Positions 17,294 through 24,399 of a stretch of 64,000 nucleotides of DNA are shown one piece after another. The notes under the pieces were generated by a model that was given only the letters and a program-made list of their open reading frames with translations, made no database searches and was not told the DNA's origin. How positions within the stretch are numbered: the stretch's first letter is position 1; each line of letters begins with the position of its first letter. The DNA comes from Kineococcus xinjiangensis (GTDB lineage: Bacteria; Actinomycetota; Actinomycetes; Actinomycetales; Kineococcaceae). The stretch lies in contig NZ_PTJD01000002.1 of the NCBI RefSeq assembly GCF_002934625.1, positions 62,001 to 126,000 on the forward strand. The letters are read 5' to 3'. A program made the translations under genes and the position numbers.

Positions 17294-18583
17294 TCAGCCA
17301 CCGAGCAGGTCGTGCCGCACGACGGTCTGCTCGCGGTCCGGGCCGACGCCCACCGCGGAGATCCGCGCGCCGCTGATCTCCTCCAGCCGCTCCACGTAGC
17401 GCTGCGCCGCCTTCGGCAGCTCGTCGAAGCTGCGCGCGCCCGTGATGTCCTCGGTCCAGCCGTCGAGGAACTCGTAGACCGGCTTGGCGTGGTGGAAGTC
17501 CGTCTGCGTCATCGGCATCTCGTCGTGGCGCACCCCGTCGACGTCGTACGCCACGCAGACCGGGATGCGCTCCCAGCCAGTGAGGGTGTCCAGCTTCGTC
17601 AGCACGAAGTCCGTCACGCCGTTGATGCGAGCCGCGTAGCGGGCGATCGGCGCGTCGTACCAGCCGCAGCGGCGCGGCCGGCCCGTCGTGGTGCCGTACT
17701 CGCCGCCGTCGGCGCGCAGCTTCTCCCCGTCCGCGTCCAGCAGCTCCGTCGGGAACGGGCCCTCGCCGACGCGGGTCGTGTACGCCTTGACGACGGCGAT
17801 GATCCGGTCGATGCGGTTCGGCGGCACCCCGCTGCCCGTGCAGGCGCCCGCCGAGACGGCGCTGGAGGACGTCACGAACGGGTAGGTGCCGTGGTCGATG
17901 TCCAGCAGCGTGGCCTGGCCGGCCTCGAACAGCACCATCTCGCCGCGGTCGAGGGCGCTCGTCAGCTCCAGCGCGGTGTCGCGGACCATCGGCCGCAGCC
18001 GCTCCGCGTACGCCAGCAGCTCCTCGGCCACCTCGTCCACCGTGATGGCCCGGCGGTTGTACACCTTCACCAGCAGGTGGTTCTTCTGGTCCAGGGCGCC
18101 CTCGAGCTTCTGCCGCAGGATGCCCTCGTCGAAGAGGTCCTGGATGCGGATGCCCACCCGGTTGATCTTGTCGGCGTAGGTGGGGCCGATGCCCCGGCCC
18201 GTCGTGCCGATGCGGCGCTTGCCCAGGAAGCGCTCGGTGACCTTGTCGATCGTGCGGTGGTACGGCGCGATGACGTGCGCGTTGGCCGAGACGAGCAGGC
18301 GGGAGCAGTCGACCCCGCGTGCGGTCAGCCCCTCCAGCTCCTCGAACAGCACGGAGAGGTCGACGACGACCCCGTTGCCGATGACCGGGGTGACGCCCGG
18401 GGTGAGGATGCCGGACGGCAGCAGGTGCAGCGCGTACTTCTCGGAGCCCACCACGACCGTGTGCCCGGCGTTGTTGCCGCCGTTGAACTTCACGACGTAG
18501 TCGGCCCGCGCGCCGAGCGCGTCGGTCGCCTTGCCCTTGCCCTCGTCGCCCCACTGGGCCCCGACGAGCACGATCGCGGGCAT
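17294..18583 (-). CDS. purA: Adenylosuccinate synthetase
   Basis: This 429-residue enzyme makes adenylosuccinate from IMP, aspartate and GTP, the first committed step to AMP. It begins [18 protein letters not shown] (GTP loop GDEGKGK, residues 12-18) and continues with [40 protein letters not shown] and [11 protein letters not shown]. Length and motifs are complete. ATG 18583 follows CAGGGGATCTG. A renalase-like gene, DUF3151 and the LOV phosphatase gene lie upstream on the same strand, but the 224-base gap before purA suggests its own promoter. Confidence 0.97.
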
Positions 18584-18807
18584 CAGATCCCCTGCTTCCC
18601 TCTCCGGCTGCTGCTCGCGCTGGGCGTCTCCGCGCGACGGCCGCCACCCGCCTGCGGCAGGGCCGTGCTCCTGCGGCACGGACAGCTCCTCGACAGGACG
18701 GCCGCGACGGACCGCCGCAGAGCGTACCCGCTGCGTGGCCCTCACCCCGCCCCGCTGTGGACGGGGGCACCCTCCCGGCGCAGCCGACCGCCCGCGCCGT
18801 CAGCCCG

Positions 18808-19862: not shown

Positions 19863-20285
19863 CTACGCCAGGCCGAGGACCCGCGCGGCCTCGGGGTCGC
19901 AGTCGGCGAGGAAGGTGCGACAGCGCGCCGCCTCCTCCTCCTCGCGGATCGCGCCGGCCGCGTGGCCGAGGACGGCGAGCGCCCGCAGGAACCCGCGGTT
20001 CGGCTCGTGCGACCACGGCACCGGGCCCGCCCCCCGCCAGCCCGAGCGGCGCAGCGCGTCGAGGCCGCGGTGGTAGCCGGTGCGGGCGAAGGCGTAGGCG
20101 GTGATCGTCTCCCCGTCGGCGAGGGCGCGCTCGGCCAGCAGCGCCCAGGCCAGCGACGCCGCCGGGTGCGCGGCCGCGACCTCCTCGGGGTCGGTGCCCG
20201 CGGCCAGCGCGTCGGTCACGGCCGGGTCGGCGGGCAGGTGCGTGGGCGGGGTCGGCAGGAGGTTGCCGTGCGGCGGGTGGGCCAC
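19863..20285 (-). CDS. DUF3151 domain protein
   Basis: This 140-residue soluble protein matches actinobacterial DUF3151: LPADPAVTDALAAGTDPEEVAAAHPAASLAWALLAE in segments, ITAYAFARTGYHRGLDALRRSGWRG, VPWSHEPNRGFLRAL and CRTFLADCDPEAA. GTG 20285 follows GAGAGGACACGACG. It is typically found near fructose-bisphosphate aldolase and purA in actinobacteria, as it is here within a few kilobases. Function is unknown. Confidence 0.88.
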   Translation of the reverse strand: MAHPPHGNLLPTPPTHLPADPAVTDALAAGTDPEEVAAAHPAASLAWALLAERALADGETITAYAFARTGYHRGLDALRRSGWRGAGPVPWSHEPNRGFLRALAVLGHAAGAIREEEEAARCRTFLADCDPEAARVLGLA

Positions 20286-20341: not shown

Positions 20342-22585
20342 TCAGGAGGTCGGGGCGCCGGGTTCCCCCGGCGGGGACGACCGTAGCTCCACCCACACGA
20401 GCTTGCCGCGCCGCGTCGGCGCCCAGCCCCACTCCCCCAGCCGGGCGACGAGCCGCATGCCGTGGCCGCCGCCCCCGTCGGGCCGGGGCTCCACCACCTG
20501 CGGCCCCACCGGGTTGGCGTCCTCGACCTCGATGCGCAGCCCCGCGTCCGTCTCGAACAGCCGCAGGTCCACCTCCCCACCGCCGTGCAGGACGGCGTTC
20601 GCCACGAGCTCGGAGACGGCGATCTCCGCCTGCGGGCCGCAGTGCAGCCCCCACACCGCGCAGGCGCGCAGCGTGGCGTGGCGCGCCTTCCCGATCGAGG
20701 AGGCCTCCCCGGGCAGCCGCCAGCGCCGACGCCGCGGCAGCTCCGGCTGCTCCACCGCGGCGGGCACGGACGGGACGCGCACCACCACCAGGGCGGTGTC
20801 GTCCTCCGGGGCGTCCCCCAGCGCGGCGAGCAGCTCCCGTCCGATGCCGGCGGCGTCCTCGGCCGTGGCGGCCTCCAGGGCCGCCACCAGGTCGCCGAAG
20901 CCGTCCCGCATCGGGCGGCGGCGCTGCTCGATGAGGCCGTCGGTGTAGAAGACGAGCACGTCACCCGGCGACAGGGAGCGCTCCCGCGTGGGGCGGGGGC
21001 GGTCCCCCAGGCCCACGAGCGTGCCGGTGGCCTCGCTGAGCACCTCCACGCGGGCCCTGCCGCCGGGGTCGGCGGGGCGGCGCAGCAGCGGCGGCAGGTG
21101 CCCCGCGCTGGACCAGGCCAGCTCCCACTCCCCGTCGTCGAGGCGGGACAGGGTCGCGTAGACGGCGCTGGCCATGCGGGGGATGCGCATCGCGGCGGCC
21201 AGGGAGTCCACCCGCTGCAGGACGCTGCCGGGGTCGTGCAGGTCGTGGGCGTAGGCGCGCAGCACCGAGCGCAGCTGCCCCATGGCCGCGGCGGCCTCCA
21301 CGTCGTGCCCGACGACGTCGCCGATGACCACACCCGCGACGCCGTCGGCGAGCTGCAGCACGTCGTACCAGTCCCCCCCGAGCTGCGCGTGCTCGCGGTT
21401 GGGCTCGTAGTGCGCCCACACGTCGAGGTCCTCGACGCGGGCCACCTCGGGCAGCAGGCTGCGCTGCAGGGTCTCCGCCAGCGCCTGCTCGCGGGCGTGC
21501 AGGCGCTGGCTGCCCAGCGCCAGGCCGGTGCGGCGGGCGGCCTCGGCCACGAGCGCGGCGTCGTCCGGGGCCAGCACCGGGGCGGAGCGCCGCTCCACGG
21601 CCCCGGGTGGTCCCGGGGGCCCGGGCGGCCCGGCGGGGCCGTCGGAGCGGCGCCGGCCGCGGTGGGCGCCGACCACGAGCAGCCCGAACACCTCGCCGCC
21701 ACCCGCCACGGGCACCACGACCGCGCGCCCGCCCGCGTGGGGCGCCAGCAGCGCCCCGAGCCAGTGCGCCAGCGGCTGCTCGGCCTCCGCGGGCACGTCC
21801 GCGAGGTCGACCTCCACGGGGGCGACGGCGGCCGGGGCCCCCTCCCGCTCGCGGGGGACGGTGAGGAGCCCGGCGAGGGGGTCGGCGCTCCAGCGCTCCC
21901 GGGCGGCGGCGGGCAGCCGCGCCCCGTGCAGCTGCTCGGCGGCCGCGGCGAGCGTCCCGCTGACCGCGCCGACCTCGACGTCCGGCTCCACCCGCAGCGC
22001 GAGCGCCCAGTCCACGACGTCGCGGGTGAGCAGCCCCGCGGCGGTGCGCAGCGCCTCGGGGGCGTCGAGCTGGGCCACGGCGTCGCTCAGCTCCAGCAGC
22101 AGCGACAGGCGCGCGCGGGACTGCCGCTCCGCGCCGTAGGCCCGTTCCAGCTCCCCCTCGGTGCGGACGCGCTCGGTCACGTCGCTGAGCGCCGCCACGA
22201 AGCTCACCAGCTCTCCGCGCTCGTCGCGCACGGGCGCCAGCGAGACCTGGTTCCAGAACGGCGTCCCGTCCGCGCGGTGGTTGAGCAGCGTCACCACCGC
22301 CGCCTCGCTGCGCTCCACGGCGCGGCGCAGCGCCTCCACGGCGGCGGGGTCCGTGCCGGGGCCCTGCAGGAACCGGCAGTTGCGGCCCAGGACGTCGGCG
22401 GCGGCGTAGCCGGTGGTGCGGGTGAAGGCCTCGTTGGCCCACACGAGCGGGTTGTCGGGCTGGTGCGGGTCGGTGACGACGACGGCGAGGTCGGCGGCCT
22501 CCACCGCCAGCTCGCTGAGCCGGCGGAGGGCGGAGGCGACGCCGGAGGACACGCCCTCGACGGGCGCGTCGCTGCGCTCGGCCAT
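20342..22585 (-). CDS. LOV-GAF-PP2C(SpoIIE)-HATPase signalling protein
   Basis: This 747-residue multidomain protein starts with a LOV-type PAS domain (about residues 25-140) with the photoactive-cysteine motif GRNCRFLQ (Cys70) and FMN contacts Asn102 and Asn112. The usual conserved Gln of the last strand is Leu133 (FVAALSDVTE). A GAF-like region follows (about 160-370), then a SpoIIE/PP2C phosphatase (GGDWYD near 402, GDVVGHD, YTDGLIE) and an RsbW-like ATPase (SELVANAVLHGGG near 660, GGHGMRLVARLG). A GC-rich Gly/Pro linker lies before the phosphatase. ATG 22585 follows GAGGAGTGACCGACGC. It probably dephosphorylates and rephosphorylates a STAS anti-anti-sigma factor in response to blue light; the STAS gene next door is divergent. 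Confidence 0.88.
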   Translation of the reverse strand: MAERSDAPVEGVSSGVASALRRLSELAVEAADLAVVVTDPHQPDNPLVWANEAFTRTTGYAAADVLGRNCRFLQGPGTDPAAVEALRRAVERSEAAVVTLLNHRADGTPFWNQVSLAPVRDERGELVSFVAALSDVTERVRTEGELERAYGAERQSRARLSLLLELSDAVAQLDAPEALRTAAGLLTRDVVDWALALRVEPDVEVGAVSGTLAAAAEQLHGARLPAAARERWSADPLAGLLTVPREREGAPAAVAPVEVDLADVPAEAEQPLAHWLGALLAPHAGGRAVVVPVAGGGEVFGLLVVGAHRGRRRSDGPAGPPGPPGPPGAVERRSAPVLAPDDAALVAEAARRTGLALGSQRLHAREQALAETLQRSLLPEVARVEDLDVWAHYEPNREHAQLGGDWYDVLQLADGVAGVVIGDVVGHDVEAAAAMGQLRSVLRAYAHDLHDPGSVLQRVDSLAAAMRIPRMASAVYATLSRLDDGEWELAWSSAGHLPPLLRRPADPGGRARVEVLSEATGTLVGLGDRPRPTRERSLSPGDVLVFYTDGLIEQRRRPMRDGFGDLVAALEAATAEDAAGIGRELLAALGDAPEDDTALVVVRVPSVPAAVEQPELPRRRRWRLPGEASSIGKARHATLRACAVWGLHCGPQAEIAVSELVANAVLHGGGEVDLRLFETDAGLRIEVEDANPVGPQVVEPRPDGGGGHGMRLVARLGEWGWAPTRRGKLVWVELRSSPPGEPGAPTS

Positions 22586-22766
22586 GCGTCGGTCACTCCT
22601 CGTCGGTGGGGTCCGGGGAGCGGCGCGCACGGCCGCGGGGGCGGCCGCTTTCCCAGGACTGGCTCCCATGTTCTACCGTGCGGCTGCGGCTCGCGCGTTC
22701 GTGCGCGGGCCGGGCGGGAGTGCTTCGAGCTCGGCGCCCGCCGTCGCGAGGGGGGTCGGAGGGGAC

Positions 22767-23183
22767 ATGGCGAGGGACACGACGCCGCCGGGCGAGAGCA
22801 GCGCGGACCGCCAGCCGGACATCCGCGCCGTCGACCCGGGGTCAGTCCACGTGCTGTACGAGCCCCGCGCGACCCGCGTGGTCCTCACCGGCGAGATCGA
22901 CGCGGAGCTCGGCCCGGACCTGCTGGAGGCCGCCGAGGACGCGCTGTCCTCCGGCCGCCCGGTGCAGGTGGACGCCCACCACGTCACGTTCATGGACTCC
23001 ACGGGCCTGGCGTTCCTGGCGCGGCTGGCCTCCCGCTCCCGCGGGCGGCGCGTGACGCTGATCCGGCCGCCGGCGGTGGTGCGCTTCCTCATCGAGACCA
23101 CGAACATCGTGCAGCTGCTCGACGTGGTCGACGAGGAGCCGTCCCTGGCCCAGCACGGCGATCCGGGGCCCGAGCCCGCCTGA
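22767..23183 (+). CDS. STAS domain anti-anti-sigma factor-like protein
   Basis: This 138-residue protein has a STAS domain: RVVLTGEIDAELGPDLLEAAEDAL, VDAHHVTFMDSTGLAFLARL with the phosphorylatable Ser of the DSTG motif, and IVQLLDVV. ATG 22767 follows GGAGGGGAC. It is divergent from the LOV-PP2C-HATPase gene across 181 bases, so the two likely form a partner-switch pair: the kinase/phosphatase domains act on this Ser and the free STAS protein frees a sigma factor. No sigma factor gene is in the window. Confidence 0.9.
   Translation: MARDTTPPGESSADRQPDIRAVDPGSVHVLYEPRATRVVLTGEIDAELGPDLLEAAEDALSSGRPVQVDAHHVTFMDSTGLAFLARLASRSRGRRVTLIRPPAVVRFLIETTNIVQLLDVVDEEPSLAQHGDPGPEPA

Positions 23184-23379: not shown

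Positions 23380-24399
<1,020 letters not shown>

Follow-up and report, generated by a model that had tools for sequence, protein, structure and literature searches.

A leucine at the conserved LOV glutamine position in a Kineococcus phosphatase-kinase encoded at a conserved Actinomycetales signalling locus

The glutamine in the last strand of LOV domains was long thought essential. A 747-residue protein encoded in the stretch of Kineococcus xinjiangensis DNA analysed here (64,000 nucleotides, hereafter the window) carries a leucine in its place, and the question is whether this protein is still a blue-light receptor or a LOV domain that is losing its light sensing. A first-pass annotation made from the sequence alone had described a single chain of LOV domain, GAF-like region, PP2C phosphatase and RsbW-like ATPase, with a STAS gene lying head to head. 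We examined the layout with Pfam, an AlphaFold2 model and Foldseek (Table 1). Pfam matched PAS_9 and SpoIIE/PP2C (E 4e-41), while HATPase_c_2 scored 24.5 against a cut-off of 27.4. The model was confident for the LOV domain and the phosphatase and contained the HATPase, and its phosphatase-kinase half superposed on the RsbU-RsbW domains of Rv1364c (PDB: 3ke6). Pfam GAF gave no match in the 747-residue protein and sub-threshold matches in two orthologs (L234 and L223); this region was modelled as an alpha/beta fold of moderate confidence, less certain than the LOV domain and the phosphatase. The LOV and PP2C parts of the proposed layout were upheld, the RsbW-like part is probable, and the GAF-like part is retained tentatively. 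The start codon is preceded by GAGGAG, with an alternative longer start at 22669, and the span under study (20342-23183) ends with the STAS stop codon.

Table 1 Features of the LOV-phosphatase-kinase locus and its flanks, in window positions
Feature	Position	Strand	Evidence or remark
purA	about 17294-18586		beyond the DUF3151-type gene
DUF3151-type gene (presumed family)	19863..20285	(-)	conserved flank, sensor side
LOV-GAF-PP2C-RsbW-like gene, 747 aa	20342..22585	(-)	ATG 22585, stop 20342-20344
RsbW-like HATPase, residues about 616-738	20372..20740	(-)	Glu659, Asn663, Asp689, Gly707, Gly709
SpoIIE/PP2C phosphatase, residues about 385-605	20771..21433	(-)	Pfam; Asp405, 423, 428, 549, 595, 596
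Linker helix ahead of phosphatase, residues 340-376	21458..21568	(-)	model
GAF-like region (tentative), residues about 171-308	21662..22075	(-)	sub-threshold Pfam GAF in orthologs, model
Long helix after LOV, residues 137-170	22076..22177	(-)	AlphaFold2 model
LOV domain, residues 27-139	22169..22507	(-)	PAS_9, ungapped LOV alignment, model, Foldseek
Leu133, codon CTC	22187..22189	(-)	at conserved Gln, AsLOV2 Q513
Asn112	22250..22252	(-)	AsLOV2 N492
Asn102	22280..22282	(-)	AsLOV2 N482
Adduct Cys70 in GRNCRFLQ	22376..22378	(-)	AsLOV2 C450 position
Divergent intergenic region, 181 bases	22586..22766		between sensor and STAS genes; coordinates
STAS anti-sigma-factor antagonist, 138 aa	22767..23183	(+)	Pfam STAS_2; Ser78 in DSTG, 22998-23000
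fba, fructose-bisphosphate aldolase	23380..24399	(-)	conserved flank, STAS side

With residues numbered from the ATG at 22585, phmmer aligned the LOV part with solved LOV domains without a gap, and Leu133 faced the glutamine (PDB: 9vf7, FVGIQSDVS). The modelled LOV domain matched Meiothermus MrLOV (PDB: 9vf8) at 0.6 Å over 103 columns in Foldseek. The alignment places Leu133 at the FMN-contacting position where LOV photoreceptors carry their last-strand glutamine, with Cys70, Asn102 and Asn112 kept, as had been read from the letters. In AsLOV2 numbering, residues of a type accepted in LOV domains occupy 19 of 20 flavin-contact positions, by a position list and allowed residue sets defined for this analysis. 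All nine residues named in the published filter for Gln-less LOV domains are present (G67, N69, C70, R71, F72, L73, Q74, N102 and N112). Five canonical LOV orthologs share 47 invariant positions, of which the Kineococcus protein retains 41. Among the other six, three lie side by side (G131A, V132A and Q133L), giving AAL in the Kineococcus protein versus GVQ in the canonical orthologs; as half of the losses fall at residues 131-133, the change appears local and not a general decay. In the comparison with the ortholog L241, the flavin contacts showed no extra identity (13/20 versus 57/92 elsewhere, Fisher p 0.5).

Loss of the glutamine is rare among the relatives of this protein. In the loci retrieved from the family, from the order and from named genomes, 108 LOV domains with the cysteine carried the glutamine and five did not, namely the Kineococcus gene and four from Nitrospirae and Planctomycetes-type metagenome-assembled genomes. 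These four (L048, L055, L061 and L078) have Ile, Ile, Met and Leu at the position, respectively. Two further LOV genes of the Kineococcus genome carry the glutamine. A pattern search over 395 genomes of the class, covering CTN codons for leucine and a single spacing, found NCRFLQ followed by 58 residues and Leu-x-Asp once, in the Kineococcus gene, while the same pattern with Gln instead of Leu gave 25 matches in 21 genomes; by sequence, leucine at this position is rare in the class.

The substitution itself is not new, because about 350 natural Gln-less LOV receptors, mostly with Leu or Ile, were catalogued in 2022 by a filter demanding at least eight of nine named LOV residues and no glutamine (Dietler et al., PMC9098866). 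One of them, a LOV-GGDEF-EAL protein with Met, was shown to respond to blue light, and Leu variants of NmPAL, YF1 and AsLOV2 still signal in light, mostly more weakly and with a slower return to the dark state, whereas Gln-to-His variants of YF1 and NmPAL lose the light response (PMC9098866). As published work found the glutamine dispensable, it no longer defines a LOV domain. The first-pass suggestion of an altered mode of light reading in this natural variant is weakened by these findings. What is new here is the locus at which the substitution occurs.

Orthologs of the phosphatase-kinase half were found in 68 of the 376 genomes of the order, one clear ortholog each at identities up to 74%, with a cut-off of E below 1e-70; the raw tally of 73 included five weaker, paralog-like matches. 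Related loci are present in Actinotalea, Cellulomonas and Isoptericola. The head-to-head STAS gene noted at first, with its DSTG serine at position 78 and a STAS_2 match, proved to be part of a wider arrangement, a divergent STAS gene standing beside at least 64 of 71 orthologs, Kineococcus included. The fba gene, the gene that we take to be DUF3151-type, or both lie near 65 of the 70 ortholog loci fetched, many of which stop short of one of the two flanks. The six phosphatase aspartates and the five tested kinase residues are invariant in all 71 orthologs, and the phospho-acceptor serine is conserved in 68/68 STAS proteins. These data are good evidence for a single inherited locus whose output is constant. 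In the divergent intergenic region (22586-22766), no match to a sigma-70-type promoter or a terminator was found. In many orthologs (L045, L071, L118, L178, L183 and others), a second, weaker STAS match lies on the opposite side of the phosphatase-kinase gene, and some of these matches may have arisen by chance in GC-rich antisense frames.

The sensor half of the same locus varies. In a tree built from the phosphatase-kinase half, the Kineococcus protein, from the one Kineococcus genome in the sample, is sister to ten genomes of a second genus of the family (SH-aLRT 97); the next branches are three full-LOV orthologs (Cys/Asn/Asn/Gln), followed by another four that also have the full LOV domain. 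In all ten sister-genus orthologs, His replaces both the glutamine and Asn112; nine have Asp in place of Asn102, and eight lack the LOV cysteine. Identity between the sister genus and the Kineococcus protein is 35% in the PAS domain and 74% in the phosphatase. By parsimony, the common ancestor of these proteins probably had a full LOV domain, with the glutamine lost once or twice; the direction of change at the cysteine is read within this local clade only, as paralog rooting did not settle the deep branching. The sister-genus residues Asp/His/His at positions 102, 112 and 133 (L231-L240) resemble a 2-His-1-carboxylate set. Judged from position alone, this pocket might possibly be a metal or other ligand site, which is a guess; a zinc-binding cytosolic PAS domain is described for WalK (PMC6624279). 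A distant group of six orthologs (L045, L071, L082, L118, L131 and L191) has Pro for the LOV cysteine and keeps Asn, Asn and Gln. Their motif is of the GRNPNLL or GQRPSVL type, resembling halobacterial BAT-LOV, and by this analogy they are candidates for flavin-based redox sensing with this phosphatase-kinase as output. In the remaining orthologs, the PAS domain lacks the LOV residues.

On this evidence we consider it somewhat probable that the Kineococcus protein is a working, Gln-independent LOV blue-light receptor joined to a partner-switching output. We infer that the domain binds FMN and that blue light would produce the Cys70-FMN adduct and protonate the flavin N5. Without the glutamine, the signal could reach the beta-sheet through a transient water molecule, by analogy with the water-relay model proposed for other Gln-less LOV domains (PMC9098866). 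It would then pass along helix 137-170 to the GAF-like region and through helix 340-376 to a PP2C dimer, by analogy with the coiled-coil linker mechanism described for PPM phosphatases, in which OsaC and Rv1364c were modelled (PMC12143880). The divergent STAS protein is the assumed substrate, because the gene pair is conserved and partner switching is known: the PP2C domain would remove phosphate from Ser78 and the RsbW-like domain would restore it, and the phosphorylation state of the STAS protein would decide between binding and release of an anti-sigma kinase. The predicted consequences are a slower dark recovery and a slightly blue-shifted spectrum; the light effect could be of either sign.

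Since the sister genus lacks LOV chemistry at the same locus, loss of light sensing is a serious alternative and the main rival, although we regard it as unlikely. Here the glutamine would have gone first, flavin may still bind, and the phosphatase would be uncoupled and controlled by the GAF-like region or another input. The sister genus, with its replaced LOV residues and diverged PAS domain, would be the end state, and the Kineococcus protein groups with this genus; constraint on light sensing in the family therefore looks weak. The replacement of GVQ by AAL as a block fits such a course, as do the loss of light response in the Gln-to-His variants of YF1 and NmPAL and the codons, since the sister-genus His codon CAC is one base from CTC and the CAG of the Gln orthologs is two. 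The codon argument is weak, however, because a synonymous change from CTG to CTC is easy in a GC-rich genome, and the retention of Cys70, both asparagines and most of the LOV-invariant positions speaks against erosion.

A LOV domain swapped in from another LOV protein is quite unlikely; it would fit either mode of action, light sensing or its loss. A tree of the PAS domain alone leaves the place of the Kineococcus LOV domain unresolved, which leaves room for a swap, but the nearest rows by path in that tree are the locus orthologs L241 and L242, and mean LOV identity to the canonical locus orthologs is 60%. Still less probable is that the flavin in the LOV pocket answers cellular reduction with light of little weight: the same-locus orthologs with Pro for Cys and Asn/Asn/Gln kept, as in BAT-LOV, lend this some appeal, but the Kineococcus protein keeps the cysteine, which normally makes the adduct dominate. 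An error at the Leu codon, conceivable in a draft assembly of 42 contigs, is scarcely credible, as the codon is two bases away from CAG, the reading frame is unbroken and residues 131-132 are changed as well.

Several known systems resemble the Kineococcus protein in part. Like the Gln-less receptors of Dietler et al. (PMC9098866), it keeps the LOV signature and replaces the glutamine, Leu being common among them; the natural example tested there belongs to another output class, and the Kineococcus gene would encode a Gln-less LOV receptor with a phosphatase-kinase output. Rv1364c of Mycobacterium tuberculosis (PAS-RsbU-RsbW-STAS), whose structure 3ke6 ranked first among fold matches to the output half, likewise joins PAS, PP2C and an RsbW-like kinase in one chain. 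Its STAS domain is fused, whereas in Kineococcus the STAS protein is encoded separately, by a divergent gene, and the sensor consists of a LOV domain with the GAF-like region after it. OsaC of Streptomyces coelicolor also bears an RsbW-like kinase. By its literature description, on which the comparison is based, OsaC shares PAS, GAF and PP2C with the Kineococcus protein, but differs in sensor order and locus and is not known as a LOV protein (PMC12143880). Within the Kineococcus genome, an actinobacterial LOV-SpoIIE protein (L002) has a LOV domain followed by PP2C and is 51% identical over residues 21-200; unlike the 747-residue protein it has no HATPase match, carries the glutamine and has no matched STAS gene alongside. 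Halobacterial BAT-LOV, which responds to chemical reduction and photoreduction (Yee et al. 2015, PMC4682037), shares Pro for Cys with the six distant orthologs, whereas the Kineococcus protein keeps the cysteine.

The locus thus places a natural loss of the glutamine at an order-wide conserved signalling site, where sensor chemistry appears to have changed several times and the output has stayed constant. A wider reading, possible but on the doubtful side, is that of a vertically inherited Actinomycetales locus with a fixed output, its pocket shifting among four states: light (Cys/Asn/Asn/Gln), redox (Pro/Asn/Asn/Gln), Gln-free light (Cys/Asn/Asn/Leu) and non-flavin, possibly metal-binding (Asp/His/His). 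The Kineococcus protein would then be intermediate between light-sensing and light-blind forms. Dietler et al. reported no evidence on whether LOV domains gained Gln or Cys first in the course of evolution (PMC9098866). A syntenic locus with unchanged output and sensors without Cys, without Gln or without both forms a natural series that would allow each loss or gain to be weighed, residue by residue, against the same phosphatase.

Two SigB/F/G-type sigma factors scored above the family cut-off in the Kineococcus genome, and their link to the sensor and STAS pair is conjecture. In the same genome, 41 places match the 747-residue protein, mostly in PP2C or HATPase parts, which points to many partner-switching regulators.
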